Assembly (NCBI RefSeq): GCF_036568125.1
Contig: NZ_DATCTF010000010.1
Span: 62,001-126,000 of the forward strand
Origin: Magnetovibrio sp.
GTDB lineage: Bacteria > Pseudomonadota > Alphaproteobacteria > Rhodospirillales > Magnetovibrionaceae
Direction of reading: 5' to 3'
Length of the DNA stretch: 64,000 nucleotides
Both the position numbers and the translations under genes were made by a program. A model generated the notes under the pieces. The model was not told where the DNA came from and searched no databases. It saw only the letters and a program-made list of their open reading frames with translations. Numbering within the stretch: the first letter of the stretch is position 1; each line of letters begins with the position of its first letter. This document shows positions 7,232 to 24,557 of the stretch, piece by piece.

Positions 7232-7247
7232 AAATTGTATACAATTT
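7232..7247. promoter_or_regulatory. Perfect 16-bp palindrome AAATTGTATACAATTT, candidate operator of the malonate TRAP operon
   Basis: The perfect dyad abuts the -35 element of the predicted matPQM-matA promoter by 3 nt. The core TTGTATACAA resembles sites of FCD-type GntR regulators, one of which is encoded next door. Confidence 0.6.
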
Positions 7248-7250
7248 GGT

Positions 7251-7279
7251 TTGACAGGCATCCAATCGGGTTCTAGGCT
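7251..7279 (+). promoter_or_regulatory. Predicted sigma-70 promoter of the malonate TRAP operon
   Basis: TTGACA (7251-7256), 17-nt spacer, TAGGCT (7274-7279). The -35 is consensus and the -10 is weak, which would suit a regulated promoter. The rest of 7280-7422 is a leader with no other recognisable feature. Confidence 0.45.
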
Positions 7280-7422
7280 TTGTGCCGAATACGCAGACCT
7301 CCTCCTCGTTTTCGTCCCCAATCTGCTTCGTTTTATGGCGCTTTGGGGGCGAAAACATGAGGGGAAACTGCTTGCAAACATAAAGAATCCAACAGGGAAA
7401 AGCGTCAGGGGAGCTAACTCAA

Positions 7423-8415: not shown

Positions 8416-8437
8416 TCATCGGTGCTGTCATCTCTGT

Positions 8438-8476
8438 CGGCACTTGCATCGTCTGAGGCAAGTGCCGGCAGTTTTT
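8438..8476 (+). terminator. Hairpin with T run after the TRAP receptor gene (partial terminator/attenuator)
   Basis: CGGCACTTGC (8438-8447) and GCAAGTGCCG (8458-8467) form a perfect 10-bp stem with a 10-nt loop, followed by TTTTT at 8472-8476. It sits inside the operon, so it probably sets the receptor-to-permease ratio. Confidence 0.6.
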
Positions 8477-8495
8477 CTATTCAGGAGCGTTGGCC

Positions 8496-9023
8496 GTGAA
8501 AGCTTTCACGAAATCGATCTGCTTCGTGTCGCATGTTTGCGGCGTGGTCGCGTCGCTGTTGGTGACTTCCGCCATTTTGGTGGTGTGTCAAATGGTGGTG
8601 TGGCGCTACTTTCTCAATGCCTCCACGGTGTGGCAGACGGACTATGTGACCTTCGCACTGGTCGCCGCGACGTTGATCGGCAGCCCTTACGTGCTGCTGC
8701 TTAAAGGTCACGTCAACGTCGATCTGTTGCCCCATTACTTGCCGCATCGCGCACGCGTGGTGTTGGCGCTGGTGGCTTGCGTTGGCGGTTTGGTGTTCGC
8801 AGGTGTTTTGGCGTGGACGGGTTTTGAACTGTTTTATGATGCGCTCGACGGCAACTGGAAAACCGAAACGGTGTGGGAACTGCCGCTTTGGATACCTTAT
8901 ATATCCATTCCCATCGGGTGTGGGCTTTTGGCTTTGCAATACGTCGCCGACATCATTGCGCTGCTGACAGGCCAGCAAATGCCGTTCGCCGCCGCCACAC
9001 ATTCTGAATTCGAAGGGGAATGA
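8496..9023 (+). CDS. dctQ: TRAP transporter small permease (DctQ)
   Basis: Small membrane subunit of the malonate TRAP transporter, 175 residues, with four predicted membrane helices (about 12-38, 50-70, 87-110 and 128-150). The GTG at 8496 is preferred because AGGAG lies 8 nt upstream; a TTG at 8490 would be only 2 nt from that site. The QMVVWRYFLNASTVWQTDYVTF segment, seen as WRYFLN followed by WQTDYV, is typical of DctQ. It overlaps the large permease start by 4 nt, so the two membrane subunits are translationally coupled. Confidence 0.88.
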   Translation: MKAFTKSICFVSHVCGVVASLLVTSAILVVCQMVVWRYFLNASTVWQTDYVTFALVAATLIGSPYVLLLKGHVNVDLLPHYLPHRARVVLALVACVGGLVFAGVLAWTGFELFYDALDGNWKTETVWELPLWIPYISIPIGCGLLALQYVADIIALLTGQQMPFAAATHSEFEGE

Positions 9024-10345
9024 TCATGGATCCGTTAATCATCGGTCTGTTGGTCGCGGTGGTGACGATTGTGGTGCTCGCCACCGGTATTCCCGTGGCG
9101 TTCGGCCTGGGCCTTGTCGCCATCGGTTTTTTGGTCGCGTTCGAAGGCTGGGATTCCCTCGAAGGCATTGCCGATACGTTTTTTGCAGGGCTGAATGAAT
9201 TCGCCCTGGTATCGATTCCCATGTTCATCGTCATGGGCGCGGCCGTGGCGTCATCGCCGGCGGGCAAGGATTTGTACGAAGCGTTGGACCGCTGGTTGTC
9301 GCGGGTGCCGGGCGGGTTGATCATTTCCAACCTTGGCGCGTGTTCGATCTTTGCCGCGCTGAGCGGCTCTTCGCCCGCGACGTGCGCCGCCATCGGCAAG
9401 ATGGGCATCCCCGAAATGCAAAAGCGCGGCTATCCCGACGGTTTGGCGACGGGCTCCATCGCCGCGGGCGGCACGCTGGGCATTTTGATTCCGCCGTCGA
9501 TCACCATGATCGTTTATGGCATCGCCACGGAAACGTCGATCGGGCGCTTGTTTCTGGCAGGGCTATTGCCGGGTTTGATGCTGACGGTTTTGTTTATGGC
9601 TTGGGCGCTGTATACCGCGTGGCGTTCGGGCTATCGCTTTGGTGAGCAAAGCCATGTTGCCGGATGGCGGGCGAAGTTCGAGGTGCTGCCCCGGGTGCTG
9701 CCGTTCTTGCTGATCATCGTGGGCGTTTTGTATGTGCTGTACGGCGGCGTCGCCACGCCGTCCGAAGCCGCGGGCGTCGGCGCGGCATTCTGCCTGCTGC
9801 TGGTGGCGGTGATCTATAAGGTTTGGCAGCCGTCCAAGATTTGGGCGATCGTGTCCGATTCCATGCGCGAAAGCGTGATGATCTTGATGATCATCGGTGC
9901 GTCGGCGTTGTTCAGCTTTACCTTGTCGTCGCTGTTCGTCACCCAGTCGGTGGCGCACACCATCGCCGAGTTGTCGGTCAACAAGTGGGTTTTGCTGGCG
10001 TGCGTCAATCTGTTCTTGTTGGTGGCGGGGTTCTTCCTGCCGCCGGTGGCGGTAATCTTGATGACCGCACCGATCTTACTGCCGATCATCACGTTGGCGG
10101 GCTTCGATCCGTATTGGTTCGCGGTTATTTTTACCATCAACATGGAGATCGGCTTGATCACCCCGCCGGTCGGGCTAAATCTATATGTGATCAACGGGAT
10201 CGTGCCGAACGTTGGCTTGCCGACCATTTTGAAAGGCGCATTGCCGTTCATGCTGTGCATGGTGGTGGGGATATTGATTTTGTGTCTGTTCCCCGAGATC
10301 GCGACGTGGTTGCCCAATAAGTTGATGGGCCCTGCGATCGGTTAG
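9020..10345 (+). CDS. dctM: TRAP transporter large permease (DctM)
   Basis: Large membrane subunit, 441 residues, about 12-13 hydrophobic helices, the sodium-coupled translocation unit of the TRAP system. Family signatures include SGSSPATCAAIGKMGIPEM near residue 117 (given as SGSSPATCAAIG and GIPEM), AAGGTLGILIPPSI, and the second inverted-repeat copy near EIGLITPPVGLNLYVI. It probably imports malonate with the receptor and DctQ upstream. A GC-rich junction separates it from the decarboxylase gene. Confidence 0.93.
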   Translation: MIMDPLIIGLLVAVVTIVVLATGIPVAFGLGLVAIGFLVAFEGWDSLEGIADTFFAGLNEFALVSIPMFIVMGAAVASSPAGKDLYEALDRWLSRVPGGLIISNLGACSIFAALSGSSPATCAAIGKMGIPEMQKRGYPDGLATGSIAAGGTLGILIPPSITMIVYGIATETSIGRLFLAGLLPGLMLTVLFMAWALYTAWRSGYRFGEQSHVAGWRAKFEVLPRVLPFLLIIVGVLYVLYGGVATPSEAAGVGAAFCLLLVAVIYKVWQPSKIWAIVSDSMRESVMILMIIGASALFSFTLSSLFVTQSVAHTIAELSVNKWVLLACVNLFLLVAGFFLPPVAVILMTAPILLPIITLAGFDPYWFAVIFTINMEIGLITPPVGLNLYVINGIVPNVGLPTILKGALPFMLCMVVGILILCLFPEIATWLPNKLMGPAIG

Positions 10346-10373
10346 GTTGCTATCGGCGAAGGATGACATCGAC

Positions 10374-11684
10374 GTGACTTTTTTCAGGACGTTTCTCAGC
10401 TCCATCGCGGACGCAGGACGGGAACTGTTGGACGGACGGTTGGGCCGCGACGCCAAGTCCGCAGATATGGTCACGCTGTGTTCGGATCTGATCACGCAAA
10501 AGGGAGAGGCGCTGGGCACCGCGTTGGCGTGCGCGGTGGTCGATCTCTATCGCGGTTTCGATGATGCCGAAAAACTGGTTTTTTTCGAGATGCTGCTCAA
10601 CGATTTCGATGTAGACAGCGACGCGCTGAATGCGGCGATTGCCACGTATCAGAAAAATCCCGATCCGGCCTCCGCCCAGGCGGTGGCGCAGGCGGCGGAA
10701 TCGCGCCGCCAAAGGGTCGTACGCGCGATGAATATGGCGCCGAACGGCACCCGCACGGTGATCAACATTCGCGAAGACCTGTTGAAGCTGTTGAAGAGCC
10801 ACCCGCATTTGACGCCGGTGGACACCGATTTTGCCCATCTCTTGGCGAGCTGGTTCAACCGCGGATTTTTGGAGTTGCGGCGCATCGATTGGAGCACCCC
10901 TGCCAACGTGCTGGAGAAGTTGATCCAATACGAAGCCGTGCACGAAATCCGCGACTGGGACGATTTGCGCCGTCGCTTGGACAGCGACCGGCGATGTTAT
11001 GCCTTTTTCCATCCAGCCCTTCCTGACGAGCCGCTGATCTTCGTCGAGGTGGCGTTGGTTCAAGGCCTGGCCGGTTCGGTGCAGGCGCTGCTGGACGACA
11101 CCGCCGAACGGATCGCGCCGAAAAAGGCCGACACGGCGATTTTCTATTCCATCAGCAATTGCCAAAAAGGCTTGCGCGGGGTGTCGTTCGGCAACTTCCT
11201 GATCAAGCAGGTGGTGTCGGAACTGCGTAAGGAATTGCGCAACTTGACCACGTTTTCGACCTTGTCGCCGGTGCCGGGGTTCCGCGATTGGCTGAATAAG
11301 AACCACGCAGATTTGCCGCAGCTTGAAGCGTTGAAAAAGCCCGATTGGATTGCCGATGCGGATGCAATCGAAGCGATGGGGCAGACATTAAGCAGCTTGT
11401 GCGCGGTATATTTGGTCACGGAAAAAAGTCGCGGTCGGCCGCTCGACAGCGTCGCCCGGTTCCATCTGGGCAACGGCGCACGGTTGGAACGGATCAATTG
11501 GCTGGGCGACGTGTCGGCCAAGGGCGTTGAGGAATCGGCGACTTTGCTGGTCAATTACAAGTACGATCTGGCAAAGATCGAAAGCAACCACGAAGCCTAT
11601 GTCAACAGCGGCGCGGTGGTGCATTCCAAGCAGGTCGAAGTGCTGCTGGAACAAGCGGACGATCTCAAGCCTGTGTCGAACTAG
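10374..11684 (+). CDS. matA: Malonyl-CoA decarboxylase
   Basis: Converts malonyl-CoA to acetyl-CoA and CO2, completing malonate use with MatB. From the GTG at 10374, with GAAGGA 10 nt upstream, it has 436 residues; a TTG at 10347 would add nine residues without a ribosome-binding site. A helical N-terminal oligomerisation domain occupies about 1-140, followed by the GNAT-like catalytic domain with HPALPDEPLIFVEVAL, FYSISNCQKGLRGVSFGN (given as YSISNCQKGL and GVSFGN), and the downstream HLGNGARLERINWLGD, where the conserved His and Ser/Thr-rich features of the family reside. The 3' stop shares CTAG with the convergent RpiR gene. Confidence 0.92.
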   Translation: MTFFRTFLSSIADAGRELLDGRLGRDAKSADMVTLCSDLITQKGEALGTALACAVVDLYRGFDDAEKLVFFEMLLNDFDVDSDALNAAIATYQKNPDPASAQAVAQAAESRRQRVVRAMNMAPNGTRTVINIREDLLKLLKSHPHLTPVDTDFAHLLASWFNRGFLELRRIDWSTPANVLEKLIQYEAVHEIRDWDDLRRRLDSDRRCYAFFHPALPDEPLIFVEVALVQGLAGSVQALLDDTAERIAPKKADTAIFYSISNCQKGLRGVSFGNFLIKQVVSELRKELRNLTTFSTLSPVPGFRDWLNKNHADLPQLEALKKPDWIADADAIEAMGQTLSSLCAVYLVTEKSRGRPLDSVARFHLGNGARLERINWLGDVSAKGVEESATLLVNYKYDLAKIESNHEAYVNSGAVVHSKQVEVLLEQADDLKPVSN

Positions 11685-12556
11685 ATGAACTTGCGAAACA
11701 GCTTGGTGGTGTCGAACAGCTCTTCCAAGGTTTTCATGCGATCTTCGGTCTCACTCCAATTTTCGTTCTGAACGGCGGCGATCACCGCTTCGAGAATGAA
11801 CAAGGTGACGACGGACGAATCCCACGCCGACGGCGCTTCGATACGCGAATGAAAACTGTGGGTGGCCAGCTTCGACGCCGGCGAGCCCCATTGATCGGTG
11901 AACAGCACCAGTATCACGCCTTTGGCCGTGGCCATTTCCGCCAAACGCAAGATATCGCGTTCATAACGGCGAATGTCGAAAGCCACCAGCACGTCGCCGG
12001 GCTGCATGTTCAACACATAGTGCGGCCAAGTGTTGGAATTGGACGCGACGAGGGTGAGCCGGTCGCGGATCACCTGCATGTGGGTGAAAAAATAATCCGC
12101 CAAAGAGCGCGTCAGACGCCCGCCAACGACATGAACCGCTCGATCTTTGTCGGCCAACAGCTTCGCCACCGCGTCGAATTCACCCGGATCGATTTGACGC
12201 AAGGTCCTGCCCAGGTTCTCCATCACCGCATCGGCGAAGCGGTTGAGAATGTGGGTGTCCGGGGCGTTTTCTGTCCAGCGGTTGTGCTTAGTGATGGGGT
12301 TGGAAATGGTCGCTTCCACCTCGGTGCGCAGCGCGGCCTGCAATTCGGGAAAGCCGCTGAAGCCAAGCTTCTTGGCCATGCGCACGACGGTGGGGGTCGA
12401 GACTTCGGACGCTTCGGCAATGGTGGTAATGCTGCCCAAACCGGAAACCGGATAATTCTCAAGCAGCGCATTGGCCAACTGGCGCTCCGCCCGGGTGAGG
12501 TCGTCAAACTGGCTGCGAATGCGTTCCGCAACGGTCAGGTCTTGGGCGGTTCCCAT
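11681..12556 (-). CDS. RpiR-family transcriptional regulator (HTH + SIS)
   Basis: Regulator of 291 residues from the ATG at 12556, chosen because AGGGAG lies about 12 nt upstream; a longer GTG start at 12625 has no such site. The N-terminal HTH_6 domain (about 10-85) has LTRAERQLANALLENYP and ITTIAEASEVSTPTVVRMAKKLG (shown as ASEVSTPTVVRMAKKLG). A SIS sugar-phosphate-type domain follows (about 125-265) with VHVVGGRLTRSLADYF. It is divergent from the operon at 12735-20616 and faces a strong inverted repeat in that promoter, so it is the probable local regulator. The ligand is unknown; RpiR proteins bind phosphosugars but some control amine or amino acid operons. Confidence 0.88.
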   Translation of the reverse strand: MGTAQDLTVAERIRSQFDDLTRAERQLANALLENYPVSGLGSITTIAEASEVSTPTVVRMAKKLGFSGFPELQAALRTEVEATISNPITKHNRWTENAPDTHILNRFADAVMENLGRTLRQIDPGEFDAVAKLLADKDRAVHVVGGRLTRSLADYFFTHMQVIRDRLTLVASNSNTWPHYVLNMQPGDVLVAFDIRRYERDILRLAEMATAKGVILVLFTDQWGSPASKLATHSFHSRIEAPSAWDSSVVTLFILEAVIAAVQNENWSETEDRMKTLEELFDTTKLFRKFI

Positions 12557-12609
12557 GGCCGTTTGTGTCTCCCTGAATTGATTTGGCGTTTTCCATACTA
12601 AGCATGAAT

Positions 12610-12620
12610 GAAGAATCTTC
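12610..12620. promoter_or_regulatory. Palindrome GAAGAATCTTC upstream of the RpiR gene
   Basis: An 11-bp dyad with one central base, 54 nt upstream of the regulator start. The GAAGA half-site resembles the TCAGAAA half of the larger inverted repeat at 12649-12686. Candidate second regulator site. Confidence 0.3.
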
Positions 12621-12648
12621 ACCACAAAAGTTTTTTTAGAAGCAATCG

Positions 12649-12686
12649 TTTCAGAAATATACTTGACAGTGTCGGCATTTCTGAAA
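12649..12686. promoter_or_regulatory. 10-bp inverted repeat around the promoter of the gamma-glutamyl pathway operon
   Basis: TTTCAGAAAT (12649-12658) and ATTTCTGAAA (12677-12686) are perfect inverted copies separated by 18 nt. They bracket a consensus -35 TTGACA at 12663-12668, and a possible -10 AAGATA follows at 12686-12691 with a 17-nt spacer. Binding of a dimer here would block the promoter, which fits repression by the divergent RpiR protein. This also rules out the in-frame TTG at 12663 as a start. Confidence 0.6.
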
Positions 12687-12734
12687 AGATACCTTCATAA
12701 ATTTGGGGGCGGGGTACGGGAGCAGCCTTTGACA

Positions 12735-13562
12735 ATGCAGGAAAGTGCTCATTCCAATCAGAGCGACGGGGGCGAAGATCGTACCGCGAACGATGCTGGT
12801 GGCATCGTTCAGTTGGTCAATCCTGATGGCAAGGGCGCGATCGTGTTTGTGTGCGAGCACGCGTCACGTTTTGTCCCCAATGAATTCGCGGACCTAGGGC
12901 TCGATGCCGAGGCCTTGAAAAGCCACGTTGCGTGGGATCCCGGCGCCTGGGCCGTCGCCAAAGAACTTTCCGCTGCTTTCGATGCACCACTGGTTGGTCC
13001 GGGCGTTTCTCGCCTGGTTTATGACTGCAATCGTCCGTCCAAGGCGGAAAGCGCGGTGCCTCAAAAAAGCGAAATTTATGAAATTCCAGGCAACATCGGC
13101 CTCAGCGACAGTGATCGTTTGGCGCGGGCGGAACGATTTTACCTGCCTTACCGCAACGCTTTGACGAAGGTTCTCGAAGACGCGGTGCGTTTGGGCAGGC
13201 ACCCGGCGTTTATCACCATTCATTCCTTCACCCCGGTCTATCACGGCACGCGGCGGACCCTCGATTTGGGCATTTTGCACGATTCCGACGCGCGCTTGGC
13301 CGACGAGATTTTGCGCATCACCGCAGCTGAGGGCGAATTGACGGCGCTGATCAATCAGCCTTACGGTCCCAAGGATGGCGTGACGTACACGTTGGCCGAA
13401 CACGCCATACCACGCGGCTTGCTGAACGTGATGATCGAAATCCGCAACGACCTGATCGCCGATGGGGATGCGCAGCACGCCATGGCGATGCGTTTGGAAG
13501 GATACATCCGGGGCGCGCTGGCGAACCTGGATGTCGAACCGACACGCGAGGAGGCATCGTGA
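12735..13562 (+). CDS. N-formylglutamate amidohydrolase-family enzyme, possible gamma-glutamyl amide hydrolase
   Basis: PF05013-type amidohydrolase, 275 residues from ATG 12735; GGGAGC lies about 12 nt upstream. Expected metal ligands and motifs are present: CEHASRFVP with Glu/His near the start, HVAWDPGAWAVAKELS, SRLVYDCNRPS and ITIHSFTPVYHGTRR. Canonical members release formate from N-formylglutamate at the end of histidine degradation, but no hut gene is nearby. The operon instead contains a glutamine-synthetase-like ligase and two dehydrogenases, so I infer that it cleaves an N-substituted or gamma-amide of glutamate. The stop overlaps the next start region (GTGATG). Confidence 0.8.
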   Translation: MQESAHSNQSDGGEDRTANDAGGIVQLVNPDGKGAIVFVCEHASRFVPNEFADLGLDAEALKSHVAWDPGAWAVAKELSAAFDAPLVGPGVSRLVYDCNRPSKAESAVPQKSEIYEIPGNIGLSDSDRLARAERFYLPYRNALTKVLEDAVRLGRHPAFITIHSFTPVYHGTRRTLDLGILHDSDARLADEILRITAAEGELTALINQPYGPKDGVTYTLAEHAIPRGLLNVMIEIRNDLIADGDAQHAMAMRLEGYIRGALANLDVEPTREEAS

Positions 13563-14065
13563 TGGGGTTTGCCGCAAAATATGTGCGCGTCGTCGATGCG
13601 GTGAACTACCGCATTGGTCGGGTGATGATGTACAGCCTGTTCATCATGTTCGGCGTGTTGCTGTGGTCGTCGATCTCCAAGACGTTTTTCGTGCCGTCGT
13701 TGTGGACACTAGAAATCGCTCAGTTCTTGCTGGTGGCGTACTACATCCTCGGCGGACCGTATTCGATGCAGTTGGGCGCCAACGTGCGCATGGATCTGCT
13801 GTACGCCAACTGGTCGGCGAAGAAAAAGGCCTGGTTCGACGCGTTCACCGTGCTCTTCCTGATTTTTTACCTCGGCGTGCTGCTGTACGGCGCGATCGAC
13901 AGCACCACCTATTCGTTCGAATACAATGAGCGTAGCCCGACCGCGTGGCGGCCGCAGTTGTGGCCGATCAAGGTCGTCATGTGCATTGGCATCTTCATGA
14001 TGCTGCTGCAGGCGATTTCCGAACTGTTCAAAGACATTGCGCGTATCAAAGGGGAAGACCTCTGA
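13562..14065 (+). CDS. dctQ: TRAP transporter small permease (DctQ)
   Basis: Small membrane subunit, about 167 residues from the ATG at 13562 (a GTG at 13559 is immediately before it). Four hydrophobic helices are seen, with the conserved VAYYILGGPYSMQLGANVRMDLLY region, given as YYILGGP and GANVRMDLLY. It overlaps both the amidohydrolase stop and the DctM start (TGATG), showing tight coupling. It partners with the DctM and receptor genes that follow. Confidence 0.88.
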   Translation: MGFAAKYVRVVDAVNYRIGRVMMYSLFIMFGVLLWSSISKTFFVPSLWTLEIAQFLLVAYYILGGPYSMQLGANVRMDLLYANWSAKKKAWFDAFTVLFLIFYLGVLLYGAIDSTTYSFEYNERSPTAWRPQLWPIKVVMCIGIFMMLLQAISELFKDIARIKGEDL

Positions 14066-15387
14066 TGTCCTATGAGATGATCGCCCTTTTGATGTTCTCA
14101 TCGATGATGATGATGATGATGACCGGTCAGCGCGTGTTCGCCGCGATCGGTGGCGTCGCGGCGGTGGCCGCGTTGGCGCTGTGGGGCGTTGGTGGATCTG
14201 ACTTGCCGTTTTCGGCGGCCATGAAACTGATGAAATGGTATCCGCTGCTGACCCTGCCGATGTTCATTTTCATGGGCTATGTGCTCTCGGAATCGAAAAT
14301 CGCCGACGATCTGTACAAGATGTTTCATGTCTGGATGGGGCCGCTCAACGGCGGCTTGGCCATAGGCACCATTGCCTTGATGGTTTTGATCTCGGCCATG
14401 AACGGCCTGTCCGTGGCGGGCATGGCCATCGGCGCGACGATCGCGCTGCCGGAACTGTTGCGCCGTGGCTACGACAAGAAGATGGTCACCGGGGTCATTC
14501 AGGCGGGCTCGTCGCTGGGCATTTTGGTGCCGCCGTCGGTGGTGCTGGTGCTGTACGCCATGATTGCCCGTCAGCCGGTGGGGCAGCTGTGGCTGGCCGG
14601 GGTGCTGCCCGGCCTGATGATGGCGACGCTATTCATCATCTACATTGCCATCCGTTGCAAGTTGCAACCCGAACTTGGCCCGGCGCTGCCCAAGGAAGAA
14701 CGCAATGTGCCGATGGCGGAAAAGCTGCGGCTGCTGCGCGCGGGCATTTTGCCGATCGGCATTTTCGCCGCGATGATGGTGCCGTTCGTCAACGGTTGGA
14801 CCTCGTTGGTTGAAAGTTCCGCGATCGGCGCGCTGGCGGCGTTTGTCGCGGCGGTGCTGAAAGGGCGCATGAGCAAAACGGTGCTGGAGACGTCCTTGCG
14901 TCAGACCCTGGCGGTGTCGTGCATGTTCATGTGGATCATTTTGGCGGCGATGGCGTTCGGCGCGGTGTTTGACGGATTGGGCGCGGTCAAGGCAATCGAA
15001 AATCTGTTCACCGACCAACTGCACCTCAACCCGTGGGTCATTTTGATCTTGATGCAGTTGTCGTTCCTGGTGATGGGCACGTTCCTGGACGATACCGCCA
15101 TGCTGGTGATCGTCGCGCCGCTGTATGTGCCGCTGGTCGGTGCGCTGGGCTTCGACCTGATCTGGTACGGGGTGCTTTACACCATCACCACGCAGATCGC
15201 CTACATGACGCCGCCTTTTGGCTACAACCTGTTTTTGATGCGCGCCATGGCACCGCCGGAAATCAGCCTGCGCGATATCTATGGCTCTATTCTGCCGTTC
15301 GTTTTGGTGATGTTGGTTGCGCTGGCCTTGATTATGGCCTTCCCAGAGATCGCTCTGTGGCTGCCGCAATATGTCTACGCGAGATAA
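14065..15387 (+). CDS. dctM: TRAP transporter large permease (DctM)
   Basis: Large permease, 440 residues, starting at the ATG whose A is the last base of the DctQ stop; the reading frame is open further upstream but that part is coding in another frame. Twelve or so membrane helices and the DctM motifs LPELLRRGYDKKMVTGVI (shown as LPELLRRGYD), AGSSLGILVPPSVVLVLY (AGSSLGILVPPS) and AYMTPPFGYNLF are present. A Met-rich stretch, SSMMMMMM, follows the first residues of helix 1. The large subunit of the transporter for the operon's unknown substrate. Confidence 0.92.
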   Translation: MSYEMIALLMFSSMMMMMMTGQRVFAAIGGVAAVAALALWGVGGSDLPFSAAMKLMKWYPLLTLPMFIFMGYVLSESKIADDLYKMFHVWMGPLNGGLAIGTIALMVLISAMNGLSVAGMAIGATIALPELLRRGYDKKMVTGVIQAGSSLGILVPPSVVLVLYAMIARQPVGQLWLAGVLPGLMMATLFIIYIAIRCKLQPELGPALPKEERNVPMAEKLRLLRAGILPIGIFAAMMVPFVNGWTSLVESSAIGALAAFVAAVLKGRMSKTVLETSLRQTLAVSCMFMWIILAAMAFGAVFDGLGAVKAIENLFTDQLHLNPWVILILMQLSFLVMGTFLDDTAMLVIVAPLYVPLVGALGFDLIWYGVLYTITTQIAYMTPPFGYNLFLMRAMAPPEISLRDIYGSILPFVLVMLVALALIMAFPEIALWLPQYVYAR

Positions 15388-15454
15388 AGGATTGGGGAAT
15401 CTGTTTTCGTCGTTTGAGTACTGAGCAAACACTTAGGAGGTTAAGGAGAGGACT

Positions 15455-16498
15455 ATGATTACAAGGCGTAAGTTATTGAAGGGTGCGGGGGCTGCCGGTA
15501 TTGCGGGCGCCGCTTCGTTGGCTGCACCGGCGGTGCATGCGAAATCCACCATCAAATGGCGCATGCAGACCTATGCAGGTCCGGCATTGGCCGAACACGT
15601 CATCAAACCGGCCATCGACAGTTTCAACAAGATCGCCGGCGATGAAATGCAGATCGAACTGTATTTCGCCGATCAGTTGGTGCCGACGGGCGAACTGTTC
15701 CGCGCCATGCAAAAGGGCACCATCGATGCGGTGCAATCGGACGACGATTCCATGGCGTCGCCGACCGAAGTCACTGTGTTCGGCGGCTACTTCCCGTTCG
15801 CCAGCCGCTATTCGCTGGACGTTCCGGTGTTGTTCAACCAGTACGGCTTGAACGAAATCTGGGATGCGGAATATTCGAAAGTCGGCGTCAAGCACCTGTC
15901 CGCCGGTTCTTGGGATCCGTGTCACTTCGCCACCAAGGACCCGATCAACAGCTTGGCCGACCTGAAGGGCAAGCGGGTGTTCACGTTCCCGACCGCCGGT
16001 CGCTTCATGGCCCAGTTCGGCGTTGTTCCGGTCAACCTGCCGTGGGAAGACGTCGAAGTCGCCATGCAGACCGGCGAATTGGACGGCATCGCGTGGTCCG
16101 GCATCACCGAAGATTACACCGTGGGTTGGGCGAAGGTGACGGACTACTTCCTCACCAACAACATCTCCGGCGCATGGGCGGGTTCGTTCTTCGCCAACAT
16201 GGATCGCTACAACGAGCTGCCCGATCATCTCAAAGAGCTGCTCAAGCTGACCATGGATAGCTCTCACTACTATCGCCAGTGGTGGTACTGGGGCGGCGAA
16301 GCATCCTTGCGCGTCCACGGCAAGGACATGAAGCTGACCACCATTCCCGATGCCGAATGGGCCACAGTCGAAGCCGCAGCAGTGAAGTTCTGGGATGAAA
16401 TCGCCGCCGAGTCGGAAACCAAGGCCAAGGTGGTCGAGATCATCAAGAAGTACAACGCAGACATGACCAAAGCCGGTCGTCCGTATCGTTACGGCTGA
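15455..16498 (+). CDS. dctP: TRAP transporter substrate-binding protein with Tat-like signal
   Basis: Periplasmic DctP-family receptor, 347 residues. The N-terminus MITRRKLLKGAGAAGIAGA has a twin-arginine pattern (RRKLL) and a Tat-type hydrophobic stretch before AVHA, so export as a folded protein is likely. AGGAGG lies in the leader upstream of the ATG. The mature domain has YFADQLVPTGELFRAMQKG (shown as GELFRAMQKG), the ligand-lobe Arg in TFPTAGRFMAQFG, and MQTGELDGIAWSG. It belongs to the subfamily that binds 2-oxo acids or other small organic molecules; the ligand here is unknown and would be the pathway substrate. Two GC hairpins follow it. Confidence 0.9.
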   Translation: MITRRKLLKGAGAAGIAGAASLAAPAVHAKSTIKWRMQTYAGPALAEHVIKPAIDSFNKIAGDEMQIELYFADQLVPTGELFRAMQKGTIDAVQSDDDSMASPTEVTVFGGYFPFASRYSLDVPVLFNQYGLNEIWDAEYSKVGVKHLSAGSWDPCHFATKDPINSLADLKGKRVFTFPTAGRFMAQFGVVPVNLPWEDVEVAMQTGELDGIAWSGITEDYTVGWAKVTDYFLTNNISGAWAGSFFANMDRYNELPDHLKELLKLTMDSSHYYRQWWYWGGEASLRVHGKDMKLTTIPDAEWATVEAAAVKFWDEIAAESETKAKVVEIIKKYNADMTKAGRPYRYG

Positions 16499-16520
16499 TT
16501 TCGTCAAGGTCGAAAGCTGT

Positions 16521-16590
16521 GCGGCGAGGTTCGTTTTTACCCTCTGGGCCTCGCCGCTCGGATACCCCCCTGGGCTCTGTCCCGGGGGGG
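16521..16590 (+). other. Two GC-rich hairpins between the TRAP receptor and the ligase gene
   Basis: GCGGCGAGG (16521-16529) pairs with CCTCGCCGC (16549-16557). A second stem, CCCCCCTGGG (16565-16574) with CCCGGGGGGG (16581-16590), has one G-T wobble and a 6-nt loop. Neither is followed by a T run, so they look more like mRNA-stability or attenuation structures than full terminators. A TTGACA at 16598-16603 just after could be the -35 of an internal promoter, but no convincing -10 is seen. Confidence 0.45.
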
Positions 16591-16686
16591 GATTCGGTTG
16601 ACAAAAGCGCTACCCAAATTGTTTTGATACTTTCACAATATCCACGACCATTTGTTTTTTCGTTTTGAACCAACTAGGTGATGAAG

Positions 16687-18054
16687 ATGGCAGGCAAGTT
16701 GACTTTTGATGAGCTGAAACAGGCCGCCCAGGCGGGTGAAATCGATACGGTTCTCGCCGTCATGGTCGATATGCAAGGGCGCTTGATGGGCAAGCGCATG
16801 CATGTGGACTTTTTCATCGACAGCGGCTGGGAAGAAACCCACAGCTGCAACTATCTGCTTGCCACCGACATGGAAATGGAAACCGTCGCCGGCTACAAAT
16901 CGACCAGCTGGGAAGCGGGCTACGGCGATTACGCTTTGAAGCCGGACCTCGACACCATGCGCCGCATTCCGTGGTTGGAAGGCACCGCGCTGGTGATTTG
17001 CGACGTGCTCGACCATCAAACTCACGAACCCATTCCTCATTCGCCACGCGCCATCTTGAAAAAGCAAATCGCGCGTTTGGAAGCGATGGGCATGAAGGCC
17101 TTCATGGCGACCGAGTTGGAATTCTTCTTGTTCAAGGAAAGCTATGAGGAAGCCTTGGAAAAAGGTCATGTCGGACTGACGCCGATCAGCGGCTATAACG
17201 AAGATTACCACATCTTCCAAACCACCAAGGAAGAAGACGTCATGCGCGCGATCCGCAACGGATTGAATGGCGCCGACATTCCGGTGGAAAATTCCAAAGG
17301 CGAGGCGTGTGCCGGCCAGGAAGAAATCAACGTGCGCTACGCCGATGCCCTGGCGATGGGCGATCGTCACTCGATCATTAAAAACGGCTGCAAGGAAATC
17401 GCCTGGGCCAAGGGGCGTTCCATCAGCTTCATGGCGAAATGGAGCTACGATCACGCCGGCAACTCGTCGCACATTCACCAGTCGTTGTGGAGCTTGGATG
17501 GCGAACCGCTGTTCTTCGATGCCGACGCCGAACACGGCATGTCGGATCTGATGCGCCACTACTTGGCGGGACTGTTGCATCACGCCAGCGAAATCACCTA
17601 TTTCCTGGCTCCTTACATCAATTCCTACAAACGCTTCATGGAAGGCACCTTTGCGCCGACCAAGGCGATCTGGTCGATGGACAATCGCACCGCGGGCTAT
17701 CGCATTTGCGGCGCACATTCCAAGGCGGTGCGCGTGGAATGCCGGGTTGGCGGCGCCGACCTGAATCCTTATTTGGCGATGGCCGCGCTGCTGGCGGCGG
17801 GCATCGACGGCTTGGAAAACAAACGCGAGTTGGAGCCGGAATTCAAGGGCGACGCTTACCACGGCGAAGGCGCGCGCGAAATTCCCAAAACCCTGCGCGA
17901 CGCCATCACGGAGCTGGACAACTCCAAGATGCTCCGCGCCGCCATGGGCGACGATGTGATCGATCACTACGTCCATGCCGGACGCTGGGAACAATATGAA
18001 CAAGACCGCCGCGTCACCGACTGGGAAGTCCGACGCGGCTTTGAAAGAGCCTAA
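16687..18054 (+). CDS. Glutamine-synthetase-like gamma-glutamyl-amine ligase
   Basis: Type I glutamine synthetase fold, about 455 residues (ATG 16687 with AGGTGA upstream; GTG 16678 and ATG 16681 are alternatives). The N-terminal beta-grasp domain (about 1-115) lacks the classical GlnA Asp50 region. The catalytic domain has ATELEFFLF, GQEEINVRYADAL, the nucleotide segment SSHIHQSLW and the NRTAGYRICGAHSKAVRVECRVGGADLNPYL region (given as NRTAGYRICG and RVGGADLNPYL). It lacks the C-terminal adenylylation Tyr loop context of GlnA. This GlnT/PuuA-like group often ligates glutamate to an amine. With aldehyde and alcohol dehydrogenases immediately downstream, I infer gamma-glutamylation of an amino alcohol; true glutamine synthesis is unlikely. 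Confidence 0.82.
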   Translation: MAGKLTFDELKQAAQAGEIDTVLAVMVDMQGRLMGKRMHVDFFIDSGWEETHSCNYLLATDMEMETVAGYKSTSWEAGYGDYALKPDLDTMRRIPWLEGTALVICDVLDHQTHEPIPHSPRAILKKQIARLEAMGMKAFMATELEFFLFKESYEEALEKGHVGLTPISGYNEDYHIFQTTKEEDVMRAIRNGLNGADIPVENSKGEACAGQEEINVRYADALAMGDRHSIIKNGCKEIAWAKGRSISFMAKWSYDHAGNSSHIHQSLWSLDGEPLFFDADAEHGMSDLMRHYLAGLLHHASEITYFLAPYINSYKRFMEGTFAPTKAIWSMDNRTAGYRICGAHSKAVRVECRVGGADLNPYLAMAALLAAGIDGLENKRELEPEFKGDAYHGEGAREIPKTLRDAITELDNSKMLRAAMGDDVIDHYVHAGRWEQYEQDRRVTDWEVRRGFERA

Positions 18055-18082
18055 GAGCTTTACTTCTTTAAGAGAAAAAACC

Positions 18083-19465
18083 ATGACAAAAATGATCGAA
18101 TGTATCTCCCCCGTGGACGGGTCGGTTTTCGCCACGCGTCCGTGTGCTTCCGCCGAAGATGCCGCCGCCATCGTCGCCAAGTCGCGCGCCGCGCAACCCG
18201 CATGGGCCGCGCGCCCGATGTCGGAACGCATCGCCTTGGTGCGTGCCGGGCTTGAGCGCCTCGGTGAAATGAACGACGAAGTGGTGCCTGAACTGGCCCA
18301 TATGATGGGCCGTCCGGTGCGTTACGGCGGCGAGTTCAGGGGCGTGAACGAGCGCGGCACCTACATGGCTGAGATCGCCGAAGAGGCGCTGGCGCCAATC
18401 ATCGTCGAAAACAGCGAAGCATTCGAACGCCGCATCGTGCGCGAACCGCACGGCATCGTGTTTGTCATCGCGCCGTGGAACTATCCGTACATGACGGCGA
18501 TCAACACCGTCGCGCCCGCCCTGATCGCGGGCAACACCGTGATCATCAAGCACGCCAGCCAGACGTTGCTGGTGGGCGAGCGCATGGTACGCGCCTTCAA
18601 CGAAGCCGGCGTGCCTGGCGATGTGTTCCAAAACGTGTTCCTCGATCACGACACCACCTCGTCTTTGATCGCTTCGGGCAGCTTCGACTTCGTCAACTTC
18701 ACGGGCTCCGTCGGCGGTGGCCAGTCCATCGAACGCGCGGCTGCAGGGACCTTCACCGGCGTCGGCCTTGAACTTGGCGGCAAGGACCCCGGTTACGTGA
18801 TGGACGACGCCAACCTGGACGCGGCAGTCGACACTTTGATCGACGGCGCGATGTTCAATTCCGGGCAGTGCTGCTGCGGGATCGAACGCATTTACGTGGT
18901 CGAATCCCTGTACGACGCGTTTGTCGAAAAAGCCGTGGCGATCGTGTCGGGCTATAAGCTCGGCAATCCGCTGGATGAAAACACCACCATCGGTCCGATG
19001 GCGCACAAGCGTTTCGCCGACGAAGCGCGTGCCCAGGTTTCCGAGGCCGTCGCCGCGGGCGCGACGCCTTTGATCGACCCGGCGCTGTTTCCCGCCGACG
19101 ACGGCGGGGCGTATCTGGCGCCGCAGATCCTCACCAACGTCACCCACGACATGCGCGTGATGCGCGACGAAACCTTCGGTCCGGTGGTCGGCATCATGAA
19201 GGTCAAGGATGACGAGGAAGCGATCCGTCTGATGAACGACAGCGAATTCGGCCTTACCGCGTCGTTGTGGACCCAGGACGCCGCCCGCGCCGCCGCCATC
19301 GGCGCGCGGTTGCAGACCGGCACGGTGTTCATGAACCGCGCCGACTACGTCGATCCGGGCCTGTGCTGGACCGGATGCAAAGGCACCGGGCGCGGCGGCG
19401 CGCTGTCGATCATCGGGTACCACAACTTGACCCGTCCCAAATCGTATCACCTGAAGAAAGCTTAA
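18083..19465 (+). CDS. NAD(P)-dependent aldehyde dehydrogenase
   Basis: ALDH-superfamily enzyme, 460 residues from ATG 18083, where AAGAGAAA provides a weak ribosome-binding site; the frame is open further upstream but overlaps the ligase gene. Motifs: VIAPWNYPYMTAINT (cofactor cleft), the general base in ELGGKDPGYVM, catalytic Cys in NSGQCCCGIERIYV, and ETFGPVVGIMKV. It has a run of three Cys at the catalytic position, QCCCG, somewhat unusual. Its predicted role is oxidation of the aldehyde made by the alcohol dehydrogenase that follows 5 nt downstream. Product identity depends on the unknown operon substrate. Confidence 0.9.
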   Translation: MTKMIECISPVDGSVFATRPCASAEDAAAIVAKSRAAQPAWAARPMSERIALVRAGLERLGEMNDEVVPELAHMMGRPVRYGGEFRGVNERGTYMAEIAEEALAPIIVENSEAFERRIVREPHGIVFVIAPWNYPYMTAINTVAPALIAGNTVIIKHASQTLLVGERMVRAFNEAGVPGDVFQNVFLDHDTTSSLIASGSFDFVNFTGSVGGGQSIERAAAGTFTGVGLELGGKDPGYVMDDANLDAAVDTLIDGAMFNSGQCCCGIERIYVVESLYDAFVEKAVAIVSGYKLGNPLDENTTIGPMAHKRFADEARAQVSEAVAAGATPLIDPALFPADDGGAYLAPQILTNVTHDMRVMRDETFGPVVGIMKVKDDEEAIRLMNDSEFGLTASLWTQDAARAAAIGARLQTGTVFMNRADYVDPGLCWTGCKGTGRGGALSIIGYHNLTRPKSYHLKKA

Positions 19466-19470
19466 CGGCC

Positions 19471-20616
19471 ATGTCTCTCACCGCTAACTGGAACTACCCG
19501 ACCCCGATCCGTTTTGGCGCGGGGCGGATTAAGGAAATCGCCGATGCGTGCGCCGCCGTGGGCATGAAGCGCCCGCTGTTGGTCACCGACAAAGGCCTCG
19601 CCAACATGGCGATCACCCAAGGCACGCTCGATCTTTTGGATCAGGCGGGCCTGGGGCGCGCCTTGTTTGCCGACGTCGATCCCAACCCCAGCGAAATCAA
19701 TCTGGCCGCTGGCGTCAAAGCGTACAACGACGGTGACCACGATGGCGTGATTGCGTTCGGCGGTGGATCGGGTTTGGACTTGGGCAAAGTGATCGCTTTC
19801 CAAGCCAAGCAAACCCGCCCCGTTTGGGACTTTGAAGACGTCGGCGACTGGTGGACACGCGCCGATGTGGACGCCATCGCGCCGATCATCGCGGTTCCGA
19901 CCACGGCGGGCACCGGTTCCGAAGTGGGCCGCGCCGGCATCATCACCAATTCCGAAACCCACGTGAAGAAGATCATCTTCCACCCGAAAATCATGCCGTC
20001 CATCGTCATATGCGATCCGGAACTGACCGTCGGCATGCCTCAGGTGATCACCGTGGGCACAGGCTTGGATGCGTTCATTCACTGTCTGGAAGCTTACAGC
20101 TCGCCGTTCTACCATCCCATGAGCCAGGGTATCGCCCTGGAAGGCATGCGTTTGGTGAAGGAAAACCTGCCCAAGGTCTACGCCAACCCGAACGACATCG
20201 AAGCACGTGGTCACATGATGGCTGCCGCGGCGATGGGCGCCACGGCGTTCCAAAAAGGCCTCGGCGCGATGCACGCCATGTCGCACCCGGTGGGCGCGGT
20301 CTACAACACCCATCACGGCATGACCAACGCCGTGGTGATGCCAGCGGTGTTGAAATTCAACCGCCCCGCCATCGACGAGCGCATCGCCGCCGCCGCCGCC
20401 TATATGGGCATCGACGGCGGTTTCGATGGGTTTTACGATTTCGTCTTGCAAACCCGCGCCGATCATGGCGTGCCCGACAAGCTGAGCGCGTTGGGGGTCG
20501 GGACCGACCGGATTGACGACTTGGCCCAAATGGCGGTCGAAGACCCCAGTGCCGGCGGCAACCCGGTCGAGCTGACGGTGGACGCCGCGAAGGTCCTGTT
20601 CGAAGCCTGTATCTAG
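19471..20616 (+). CDS. Iron-containing (type III) alcohol dehydrogenase
   Basis: Group III metal-dependent alcohol dehydrogenase, 381 residues from ATG 19471; an upstream open frame lies inside the aldehyde dehydrogenase. The NAD-binding GGGSGLDLGKVIAF and TTAGTGSEVGR are present, and all four metal ligands can be seen: Asp and His in GTGLDAFIHCLEAY, His in GAMHAMSHPVGA and His in NTHHGMTNA. It would oxidise an alcohol group to an aldehyde for the adjacent dehydrogenase, working on a free or gamma-glutamylated amino alcohol. It is the last gene of the operon and is followed by a hairpin terminator. Confidence 0.92.
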   Translation: MSLTANWNYPTPIRFGAGRIKEIADACAAVGMKRPLLVTDKGLANMAITQGTLDLLDQAGLGRALFADVDPNPSEINLAAGVKAYNDGDHDGVIAFGGGSGLDLGKVIAFQAKQTRPVWDFEDVGDWWTRADVDAIAPIIAVPTTAGTGSEVGRAGIITNSETHVKKIIFHPKIMPSIVICDPELTVGMPQVITVGTGLDAFIHCLEAYSSPFYHPMSQGIALEGMRLVKENLPKVYANPNDIEARGHMMAAAAMGATAFQKGLGAMHAMSHPVGAVYNTHHGMTNAVVMPAVLKFNRPAIDERIAAAAAYMGIDGGFDGFYDFVLQTRADHGVPDKLSALGVGTDRIDDLAQMAVEDPSAGGNPVELTVDAAKVLFEACI

Positions 20617-21118: not shown

Positions 21119-21393
21119 AAATTTTAACCCCTTGCTCTCCAAAATGGAGATGTCACTGACACGCGAATGGGGACGCATGCCAATGAACACACACAAATAC
21201 ATTCTAACTATTGGGGAAAAATGGTACATTCCACGGATAGACGAACCGGGTAATCTAATTGTATTATTTAAAAGGTGGTTTGTTTTGTGTTTCAAAATGA
21301 ATCTGTTTTTACGCAATGACATAGCCTTATTTTGGGGTGAGTGGTGTGGCGGTCGAGACGGCTGCGGCTCTGTGCTCGTTCGAAGGGAATACA

Positions 21394-22029
21394 ATGAAAA
21401 TCCTATTGGTTGACGATCATAAGCTTGTCCGTGCGGGTCTGGTCCTGGTGCTGCAGCAAATGGAAGCCGGTATCGAGTTGCTGGAAGCCGGCACGGGCCG
21501 CGAAGCCATCGAATTAGCCGGCAACACCCCCGACATCGATTTGATTTTAATGGACCTCGATTTGCCTGAAGGCAGTGGCCTGGAAGCGTTGAGCGCCATC
21601 AACGCCAAGAACCCGGATTTGTCGGTGGTGATTTTATCGGCGATGGAAGATCAAGCCATGGTGTCGCGTGCGATGGAACTGGGCGCGCGGGGCTTCATTC
21701 CCAAATCGGCCAGCGGCGACGTGATGCTCAATTCGCTTCGTTTGGTGCTGTCGGGCGGCATTTGCCTGCCACCCGGTTATGGCGATGCGTCGCGCGGGGA
21801 CAATTCCGAATTGCCCAATTTGACCCAGCGACAGTTGGAAGTGTTGCGGTTCATGGCGCAAGGCAACTCCAACAAGGAAATTGCCCGCGAATTGGGTATT
21901 TCCGAAAACACCGTGCGCGTCCACATCTCGGCCATCATCAGCGCGCTCGACGCCACCAACCGAACCGAGGCGGCGTATTCGGCGATGCGCTTGGGACTGA
22001 TCCCGCGCGCCACCCTCAGCATGGCTTGA
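21394..22029 (+). CDS. NarL/FixJ-family response regulator (receiver + LuxR HTH)
   Basis: DNA-binding response regulator, 211 residues, ATG 21394 with GAAGGGA 6 nt upstream. The receiver (about 1-118) has DDH at 7-9, predicted phospho-Asp54 in LMDLDLPEG and the conserved Lys in FIPKSASGD. The C-terminal HTH (about 145-200) has LTQRQLEVLRFMAQGNSNKEIARELG (given as LTQRQLEVLRFMAQG) and ISENTVRVHISAI. It converges on the hybrid kinase gene, with only 40 nt between the stops, and is the obvious candidate output for that kinase, whose own receiver is C-terminal and lacks an output domain. Confidence 0.9.
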   Translation: MKILLVDDHKLVRAGLVLVLQQMEAGIELLEAGTGREAIELAGNTPDIDLILMDLDLPEGSGLEALSAINAKNPDLSVVILSAMEDQAMVSRAMELGARGFIPKSASGDVMLNSLRLVLSGGICLPPGYGDASRGDNSELPNLTQRQLEVLRFMAQGNSNKEIARELGISENTVRVHISAIISALDATNRTEAAYSAMRLGLIPRATLSMA

Positions 22030-22069
22030 TCTCGCAGATCTGAAGTGCCTGCCGTCACCGATGGTGCGT

Positions 22070-24430
22070 TTAAGCACTCGGAGGGGGCGGTTCCGGGGTG
22101 CTTTTTCGCGACAAGACCTTGTGCACTTTGGACATCAGTTCTTCGGGCTGGACGGGCTTGTGCAAGATGGGGAAGCCGCTCTTTTTCGCTTCGCGCAAAC
22201 GTTCCGGCGCGGTGTCGCCCGTGATGATGATGGCTGGGATGTCGGTGGCCAAGGTTTTGCGAATCATGTCGATGGCGTCGCGGCCGGTCAGTTCCGCATC
22301 CAAACGATAATCGGCAATGATCAAGTCGGGAATGCGGCTGGCACCGATAAAAGCGCCGCGAATGGTATTGGTGTGCGCGCTAAGGAACGTCTGGGTCGAA
22401 TACCCGGCATTGTTCAAAAGCGACTTCAGCCCCAACAGCACTTGCTCGTCGTCTTCGATGATGACGATGTGTTCGTCGCCGTGGACCATGGATGTGGGGA
22501 AGAAAGCCTCTTCCTCATCGACTTGTATCGACGACAACGGCACATCGATCCAGAACGTGGAGCCTTTTCCCGGTTTGGACGAACAACCGATCCGACAGCC
22601 CAGCAAATCCGACATCCGCCGCACGATTGAAAGTCCAAGCCCCAGGCCTTGGGCACGTTGGCGCGCTTGGTTGTCGATTTGGTAGAAATCTTGGAAGATC
22701 AGTTCCAGCTTGTCATTGGCGATGCCGGGACCGGTGTCGCGAATTTCAATGCGCAGATGGCCGTCGCGGCGGCGGCAACCGATCAGGACGCGACCGCGTT
22801 CGGTGTACTTGATGGCGTTATCGACCAGATTACGCACGATCGTTTCCAAAAGCGAAGGATCGGAATAGATGTGAGCGGAACTGTCGACAGTGCGCAGTTC
22901 CAAGTCGTTGGCCCACGCGACCGCGGTCAGCTCGCTTTTGATGCGTGCGATCATCGGGCCGACGCCGAAATCCTTGAACGCGGGTTGCACCACGCTGGCT
23001 TCCAGCTTGGAAATGTCCAGCAAGGTGTTGAGCAGCTCTTTCAAGGAGTCCAGGGAATTGCGGATCAGCTTGATGATGTCGCGTTTTTCGGCCTCGGTTT
23101 CCTTGCTTTCCAGGGCGTAGACGAACAAATTCAGCGCTTGCAAGGGTTGGCGCAGGTCGTGGCTGGCAGCGGCCAAAAAGCGCGTCTTGGCGACGGACGC
23201 TTTTTCAGCTTCGTCGCGCGCTTCCACCAATCCCGCTTCGCGCGAGTGCAAGGTGTCGACCAGATATTGCAGGGACCGCGCCATATCGGTGATTTCGTCG
23301 TCGCCCGAGGTATTGATTTTAATGTACTCGCCTTCGGCATGGGCCAGCATCGAAACGCGCAGCTGCACCAGGCGGCGCAACACCGTGCGGCTGACGTACA
23401 GGAACGTTGCGATGGCGACCAGGGCGGATACCAGAATGAATCCGATCATCGCTTGGAGGGTGATGTCCATTGACCGGCTGGTATCGCGGTTGGTTTTGGT
23501 GATGGCGGCACGGATGTCCTGGGTGGCAAGATTGGAAGCCGAAATGAATTGTTCGGCAATGGTGCGCGCGGAACTCAAAGAGGCCTGAATTTGGTTGAGG
23601 GTGTCGAGGTCAAGTTTTTTGACGTGAAACAACCCGGTGCGGCCGAATGTGATGGCGTCCAGACGTTCCAGGGTGTCTTGGGCGTCGAGTTTGGCCTCAT
23701 GGGGCAAATAGGCGTATTGGCCGCGGACATCGTCGAGCTTGCGGGTCGCGCGCTTTTCCAAATCGATTAGCGGTGCGCTGTGCTCGAGGCGGGTGGCCGT
23801 CATCAACATGAAAATCACCGAATGAATGGATTCATTCCATTGGTGCAGGGGGCCGGATGGGGCGATGGTGCCGTCGGGCAGGTTGGTGCCGAATTGCACC
23901 GACACCAAGTCCTCTTGCAACTGAATCATCTCCAGATCGATTTCCGACAGCCGTTCGGCATAGACGATCCGATTTTCCGTCAAAGTGTTAAGGGTGTTGT
24001 AGGTGCTGAACAGTTGTTCTTTGAGATCGAGCAGTTCCTGTTTGCGATTTCCGGATAGCGCCTCGGTAGAGATGCTGTTGACGATCTCTTCCAGCCAGGC
24101 GGCGTCGTCTTCGACCTGGGCGATCAAGTTGACACGGGTCCAGGTGGTGGGCGAAATGATCAAGCTGGCGCCACGGCCCGCGACGCTGATGGACAATTGG
24201 CTGATGTGGGCGGTGTCTTCAAGGGTCGGAAGCTCCGCATTGATCAGCATGTCGTAATTATCTTGGAAACGGTTGAGCGCGACAATGGACGCCACGCCCG
24301 CGACAATCGCCGTTATGGTGATGAACCCGAGCGCCAAAAAGAGCTTGGTCGAAATCGCGGATTGAGCCTTCGCAATGAAATGGTCGTTCTGATCATTGGG
24401 GGGTGCGTTCGGCGCGCCCATGGCGTCCAT
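22070..24430 (-). CDS. Membrane hybrid sensor histidine kinase
   Basis: Hybrid kinase of 786 residues from ATG 24430, which has AAGGA 9 nt upstream; a GTG at 24472 is less likely. Layout: a short cytoplasmic N-terminus, helix 1 (about 30-52), a long helical periplasmic region of about 270 residues, helix 2 (about 322-345), HAMP, HisKA with His424 in AAASHDLRQPLQALN, HATPase with NLVDNAIKYTERG, DTGPGIAND and GLGLGLSIVRRMS, then a C-terminal receiver with predicted phospho-Asp707 in ADYRLDAELTG. There is no Hpt domain. The helical periplasmic region resembles TorS-like sensors, which read a periplasmic binding protein; such a protein is encoded divergently at 24558. Phosphotransfer to the convergent LuxR-type regulator is inferred. 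Confidence 0.9.
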   Translation of the reverse strand: MDAMGAPNAPPNDQNDHFIAKAQSAISTKLFLALGFITITAIVAGVASIVALNRFQDNYDMLINAELPTLEDTAHISQLSISVAGRGASLIISPTTWTRVNLIAQVEDDAAWLEEIVNSISTEALSGNRKQELLDLKEQLFSTYNTLNTLTENRIVYAERLSEIDLEMIQLQEDLVSVQFGTNLPDGTIAPSGPLHQWNESIHSVIFMLMTATRLEHSAPLIDLEKRATRKLDDVRGQYAYLPHEAKLDAQDTLERLDAITFGRTGLFHVKKLDLDTLNQIQASLSSARTIAEQFISASNLATQDIRAAITKTNRDTSRSMDITLQAMIGFILVSALVAIATFLYVSRTVLRRLVQLRVSMLAHAEGEYIKINTSGDDEITDMARSLQYLVDTLHSREAGLVEARDEAEKASVAKTRFLAAASHDLRQPLQALNLFVYALESKETEAEKRDIIKLIRNSLDSLKELLNTLLDISKLEASVVQPAFKDFGVGPMIARIKSELTAVAWANDLELRTVDSSAHIYSDPSLLETIVRNLVDNAIKYTERGRVLIGCRRRDGHLRIEIRDTGPGIANDKLELIFQDFYQIDNQARQRAQGLGLGLSIVRRMSDLLGCRIGCSSKPGKGSTFWIDVPLSSIQVDEEEAFFPTSMVHGDEHIVIIEDDEQVLLGLKSLLNNAGYSTQTFLSAHTNTIRGAFIGASRIPDLIIADYRLDAELTGRDAIDMIRKTLATDIPAIIITGDTAPERLREAKKSGFPILHKPVQPEELMSKVHKVLSRKSTPEPPPPSA

Positions 24431-24557
24431 GTTCTTTGATCCTTGAAGCCCTATCCGTTTGGAGAGTATCACTTATATGTACGGGAATTTATAGGAAACT
24501 CTCTTGTTTTCGCAGTATACACGAGCAAAGTGGACAACGGGTAGGCGGAGTGGATTA

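Follow-up and report, generated by a model that had tools for sequence, protein, structure and literature searches.

A probable ethanolamine uptake and gamma-glutamylation operon of the eto type in a Magnetovibrio genome

Ethanolamine is a widespread nutrient that comes from membrane phospholipids. A cluster of genes in Magnetovibrio sp. raises the question whether the compound is imported and broken down there via gamma-glutamylated intermediates, a route which works without ethanolamine ammonia-lyase. The cluster lies in a stretch of 64,000 nucleotides of contig NZ_DATCTF010000010.1 (positions 62,001 to 126,000; hereafter the window), in which a divergent, minus-strand RpiR-type regulator faces a compact plus-strand run of seven genes. 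The run extends from an N-formylglutamate-amidohydrolase-family hydrolase (FGase) through the DctQ, DctM and DctP components of a TRAP transporter, a glutamine-synthetase-like ligase and an aldehyde dehydrogenase (ALDH) to an iron-containing alcohol dehydrogenase (FeADH). The locus very likely serves to take up and catabolise ethanolamine, as an operon of the eto, or gamma-glutamyl, type known from the literature; homology makes ethanolamine the likeliest substrate. The operon type is already in print, and the window provides one more organism for a published pathway. The additions made by comparison are modest: one enzyme set is found with different transporters, and the TRAP transporter often occurs without the enzyme set.

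The receptor, the ligase and the predicted chemistry

In a search of PDB sequences, the solute-binding protein DctP matches the chain of entries 4uab and 4xf5 (E 1.2e-181), both of which are Csal_0678 of Chromohalobacter salexigens; alignment gives 254 of 318 residues identical (80%), and the runner-up distinct chain scores 61 bits. A model of DctP (m5f645928436d) superimposes on 4xf5 with Z 42.6 and a root-mean-square deviation (rmsd) of 2.0 over 315 aligned residues. According to a 2025 paper (PMC12410723), entry 4UAB contains ethanolamine, with Glu220 as the platform residue. From an ungapped alignment and the numbering of the PDB entry, this residue corresponds to Glu219 of the window protein, which is conserved in 33 of 33 rows of EtoX sequences, Csal_0678 included. 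TRAP receptors typically carry a carboxylate-binding arginine, as described in PMC4646407; in the window EtoX no arginine aligns to that of one malonate-type DctP, in a single comparison where the alignment is gappy.

The closest solved structure to the ligase is 5dm3, which is Csal_0679 (E 3.1e-194; 60% identity; Z 50.4 and rmsd 1.7 over 374 residues in the fold comparison), and the second closest is 11zs, entitled glutamine synthetase from Brucella melitensis. The closest structures of the receptor and the ligase, Csal_0678 and Csal_0679, thus have adjoining locus tags in a single organism. The remaining fold matches of the two proteins offer no function more specific, and there is no second close ligase in the genome of the window, the next best being 31% identical.

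The predicted route would begin with the import of ethanolamine by EtoVWX, the TRAP proteins. The ligase would then couple ethanolamine to the gamma-carboxyl group of glutamate with the use of ATP, after which FeADH would oxidise the gamma-glutamylated alcohol to the aldehyde and ALDH would take the aldehyde to gamma-glutamylglycine. From this the FGase-family enzyme would release glycine and regenerate glutamate, while the divergent RpiR protein would probably keep the operon repressed as long as neither substrate nor an intermediate is present. For the Magnetovibrio operon each of these steps is inferred, the action of the hydrolase and the effector of the regulator most of all. An earlier note on this DNA had proposed the same order of import, gamma-glutamylation, oxidation of alcohol to aldehyde to acid and hydrolysis to glutamate and glycine, which agrees with the names given to the enzymes of the Phaeobacter sp. 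MED193 operon in PMC10132767 and with the families tabulated for C. salexigens (PMC9397018). Its suggestion of ethanolamine is favoured by the likeness of receptor and ligase to the Chromohalobacter proteins. The combination of TRAP import and a final FGase step, which it had called unfamiliar, is however already in print (PMC10132767).

As for the other enzymes, the sole PDB sequence match of the FGase is 2odf (Atu2144, 'hypothetical protein'; E 5.4e-76). The aligned stretch of 2odf shares 93% identity with the FGase of an operon in Agrobacterium tumefaciens B6 (L056 in the locus set below), because of which 2odf/Atu2144 is very probably the gene of an L056-type operon. The ALDH has LELGGKDP at 229 and FNSGQCC at 258, both taken here as family signatures, and FeADH carries GLDAFIHCLEAY and GLGAMHAMSHPVGAVYNTHHG, presumably the metal-binding segments of the iron-ADH family.

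Conservation of the gene set

Gene neighbourhoods were compared in loci fetched by similarity to the ligase, these being the best 80 of at least 596 confirmed candidates (L001-L080), mostly from alphaproteobacteria according to their record titles. The sample is not unbiased, because of this best-of-list selection and because 46 of the 80 titles bear Rhizobium-group names. Sixty-five loci have at least 6.5 kb of upstream and 5 kb of downstream sequence, the 15 with short flanks having been set aside, and gene presence was assigned by identity cut-offs together with half-length coverage. In 62 of these 65 loci RpiR, FGase, ALDH and FeADH all accompany the ligase. The arrangement is not due to chance.

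The transporter is the variable part. TRAP genes are present in 21 of the 65 loci, with the order and strands of the window kept in all 21 and DctM 73-87% identical. In another 31 a single APC permease replaces the TRAP genes, again with matching order in every case; this APC permease lacks a specific name, the best model for that of L021 being one for general amino acid permeases. The other 13 loci have no matched transporter. Three of them lack most or all of the partner genes (L017 has none, L069 ALDH alone and L073 FeADH alone), and ten have all four (L029, L052, L054, L056, L057, L061, L062, L063, L071 and L074). Among the latter, L029 contains an APC permease at 49% identity, L056 and L054 were covered by model scan and L052 by reading. 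For the permease of L056 and L054 the top-scoring NCBIfam model, at 360 and 374 bits, is that of an 'ethanolamine permease' (TIGR00908), which lends independent support to ethanolamine, because an unrelated transporter of this likeness fills the same slot.

A wider sample consists of 289 genomes of the class, in many of which part of the candidates were scored for EtoX, ligase and FGase. EtoX occurs in 43 of the genomes, the ligase in 38 and both in 22 (Fisher p 1.2e-11 for joint presence, phylogeny being ignored), and in 13 of the 22 the two genes are at most 10 kb apart. Of the 15 closest FGases (E up to 2.5e-64), 14 are encoded at most 10 kb from EtoX, and the fifteenth (genome G145) is on another contig. 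At E 1e-60 EtoX has a patchy distribution among close relatives: of 6 genomes in the genus the window's own alone has it, and of 18 in the family 3 do, some of these genomes being incomplete; gain by transfer or repeated loss are possible causes. Four more loci were obtained from the class sample through their ligase: L127 has the full set with an Eat-type permease (55% identical to that of L056), L125 has ALDH and FeADH, L124 has FeADH alone beside the ligase, and L126 has no partner gene.

No ligase was found at E 1e-120 in the 21 genomes with EtoX but without a close ligase, where scoring of all candidates gives a top value of 392 bits (G081) and at most 308 bits elsewhere. The surroundings of EtoX were fetched for 19 of these 21 genomes (G043 and G234 being left out) and compared with ten query proteins. 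In 11 of the 19 loci the TRAP genes alone match, some of the pieces being short or ending at a contig edge. L097 has FGase, TRAP genes, ALDH and FeADH without the ligase, and a distant glutamine-synthetase-like gene stands by the TRAP genes in L103, L111 and L112. In L112 (genome G156) an EtoX-like receptor (59%), a different glutamine-synthetase-like ligase (32%) and an ALDH (51%) are side by side, and the locus is possibly a variant with another ligase. Five of the 21 genomes, belonging to two genera, carry EutB, of ethanolamine ammonia-lyase, versus 0 of the 22 with both EtoX and ligase. EutB adjoins EtoX in none of the five, which are few and related. These data fit EtoX as an ethanolamine importer which feeds different routes.

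Alternative readings

Several observations weigh against the predicted pathway. EtoX and the ligase are apart in 9 of the 22 genomes that have both, and four loci (L092, L093, L094 and L096) comprise RpiR, FGase and EtoVWX, with no ligase, ALDH or FeADH nearby, their EtoX proteins being 78-86% identical to that of the window. The survey of genomes with EtoX but no close ligase speaks in part against a fixed pathway encoded by one operon. RpiR, FGase and EtoVWX could instead form a separable module, in which EtoX feeds more than one route for ethanolamine or related amines (through EutB in some genomes and by another route in others). The FGase would then have another or an additional role with amines, beyond the hydrolysis of gamma-glutamylglycine, since in some relatives neither the ligase nor the two dehydrogenases accompany the module. 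This version is rather unlikely. Among the enzymes of the set, moreover, the FGase shows the lowest conservation (43-58% identity in L001-L080), and its family is common in the class sample (150 of 289 genomes at E 1e-30). It is a little harder still to accept that the window FGase acts on another amide while an unlinked enzyme cleaves gamma-glutamylglycine. The ligase-less loci would agree with such a division of labour, but the FGase stays with the ligase in nearly all well-flanked loci, even where the transporter is different, and in MED193 the FGase-type enzyme rises together with the other enzymes on phosphorylethanolamine (PMC10132767).

With regard to the substrate, the permease of L056 and L054 scores slightly below the TIGR00908 cut-off of 381.75. 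In addition, Csal_0678 has the second entry 4xf5, because of which the physiological substrate may be broader; its ligand, which we take to be L-alaninol, is probably other than ethanolamine. The same chemistry might thus serve mainly another amino alcohol, such as alaninol or 3-aminopropanol, to give alanine or beta-alanine rather than glycine. The isopropylamine pathway of Pseudomonas KIE171 follows the same logic via gamma-glutamyl-alaninol, and the sequences of the FGase and the ligase do not dictate the side chain. This reading is opposed by the resemblance of the L056 and L054 transporter to an ethanolamine permease and by the results for MED193 (PMC10132767), where an EtoX from the same operon type binds ethanolamine in the micromolar range and operon proteins are raised on phosphorylethanolamine. 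Another main substrate is accordingly improbable. The least credible proposal, which can be virtually dismissed, is that the operon serves an unrelated substrate and has an ordinary glutamine synthetase as its ligase. The ligase does belong to PF00120 and shares its fold with glutamine synthetases, but it reaches 259.8 bits against a cut-off of 429.15 for NCBIfam GlnA (TIGR00653) and 241 against 470 for type III glutamine synthetase. The genome has a separate glutamine synthetase, the GlnA L084, which keeps the DGSS motif; in an alignment with it the ligase lacks DGSS and has Phe322 in place of the glutamate of GFEAP, this phenylalanine being invariant in 30 of 30 ligase relatives. These positions are presumably the ammonium-site residues Asp50, Ser53 and Glu327 of the Salmonella enzyme. 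The absence of DGSS and the change to Phe322 therefore argue against a plain glutamine synthetase, a candidate which is rejected on the NCBIfam cut-offs and the lost motifs.

Locus layout and known systems

Every gene named by the earlier note, with its family and the divergent RpiR, is found at the site by open reading frames and Pfam (Table 1). Its range, 12556-20616, correctly spans the DNA between the first codon of RpiR and the stop codon of FeADH but leaves the RpiR gene itself just outside.

Table 1. Features of the predicted ethanolamine operon in the window
Feature	Position	Strand	Basis and remarks
RpiR-type regulator	11681..12556	-	Pfam HTH_6 + SIS (PF01418+PF01380); ATG 12556, alternative open reading frame start 12625
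Putative RpiR operator	12649..12686	.	Inverted half-sites TTTCAGAAAT / ATTTCTGAAA bracketing a TTGACA -35-like box
FGase-family hydrolase	12735..13562	+	PF05013, 130 bits; ATG 12735, TTG 12663 possible; predicted gamma-glutamylglycine amidohydrolase
TRAP small permease, EtoV-like DctQ	13559..14065	+	Pfam PF04290
TRAP large permease, EtoW-like DctM	14065..15387	+	Pfam PF06808
TRAP solute-binding protein, EtoX-like DctP	15455..16498	+	PF03480; predicted ethanolamine receptor
Glutamine-synthetase-like ligase	16687..18054	+	Gln-synt_C (PF00120); predicted gamma-glutamylethanolamide synthetase
Aldehyde dehydrogenase, ALDH	18083..19465	+	Aldedh PF00171, 402 bits; predicted gamma-glutamyl-aminoacetaldehyde dehydrogenase
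Iron-containing (type III) alcohol dehydrogenase, FeADH	19471..20616	+	Fe-ADH PF00465, ADH_Fe_C; predicted gamma-glutamylethanolamide dehydrogenase

Between the start codons of RpiR and FGase, the inverted pair around the TTGACA box is plausibly an RpiR operator over the promoter. The pair is present again in L001 and in looser form in some other loci. Searched for strictly, the half-site TTTCNGAAA turned up in 5 of 73 loci, where the control predicts 0.4, and 1 of the 73 has two half-sites.

Next to the operon (4890-11684) is a malonate set, consisting of malonyl-CoA synthase (NF005702, 823 bits, cut-off 558), a GntR/FCD regulator, a TRAP DctP-DctQ-DctM transporter and malonyl-CoA decarboxylase, the end of which shares 4 bases with the end of the RpiR gene. 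A conserved tie between this set and the operon was rejected, the decarboxylase having no tblastn match in the 80 loci. Directly downstream of FeADH (21337-24472) are genes for a response regulator of NarL type and for a hybrid histidine kinase of NahK/ErcS type (NF041832, 349 bits, below the cut-off of 400); a tie to the response regulator was likewise rejected, with weak partial matches in L015 and L016 alone among the 80 loci. Further upstream, before the malonate genes (5-4875), two open reading frames resemble, by eye, the hydrogenase maturation proteins HypD and HypE; after them come a sigma-54 response regulator and a PAS histidine kinase. A tmRNA gene lies at 42961-43311 on the minus strand (tag ANDNDVAFAVAA, with an asterisk flag from ARAGORN).

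Of the known systems, the canonical Eut pathway, with its EutBC ethanolamine ammonia-lyase, shares the predicted substrate but was rejected here, since there is no EutB in the genome of the window (G000; 3.39 Mb in 19 contigs, 95% complete), which has 0 matches to PF06751. The Puu pathway for putrescine protects its amine in the same manner, by gamma-glutamylation with a PuuA-type ligase, and has other oxidation enzymes and a final hydrolase of another type, PuuD. It too was discarded as a candidate, as the window ligase scores 211.9 bits with the gamma-glutamylputrescine synthetase model NF045547, far under the cut-off of 650.

The GlnA4 route of Streptomyces coelicolor (SCO1611-SCO1615) is closer, in that it has the gamma-glutamylethanolamide logic, a dehydrogenase, an ALDH and a last enzyme of the formylglutamate-amidohydrolase family (PMC6529630, PMC9397018). 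The same steps were proposed for Streptomyces by Krysenko 2019 (PMC6529630), and glutamylation of ethanolamine by GlnA4 has been shown. It is unlike the window in its regulator, EpuRI, and TRAP genes go unmentioned in the accounts of the route in PMC9397018 and PMC6529630. Nearer still is C. salexigens, with a receptor 80% and a ligase 60% identical to those of the window and the same four enzyme families, PF00120, PF00465, PF00171 and PF05013, as tabulated in the 2022 review (PMC9397018). Two papers differ on how far that pathway was shown. PMC10132767, citing Vetting 2015, says that closely related genes of C. salexigens and of A. tumefaciens C58 have been demonstrated to encode a working ethanolamine pathway, whereas the C. 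salexigens pathway is predicted in silico according to Krysenko 2019 (PMC6529630), citing Gerlt 2016.

The closest counterpart is the eto operon that Westermann 2023 (PMC10132767) described in Phaeobacter sp. MED193, a different organism, to which the binding and proteome data belong, the window being known from sequence. According to that paper, its EtoX binds ethanolamine with a dissociation constant of 7.9 uM and does not bind phosphorylethanolamine, five operon proteins rise on phosphorylethanolamine, the FGase-type GGAH included, and the pathway is labelled predicted in the figure legend. By locus tag (MED193_10021 to 10056) the order there is RpiR-GGAH-EtoV-EtoW-EtoX-ETAGA-GAADDH-GETADH, where GGAH is gamma-glutamylglycine amidohydrolase and ETAGA is ethanolamine gamma-glutamylase (PMC10132767). 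These are the same eight kinds of gene, in the same order, as in the window.

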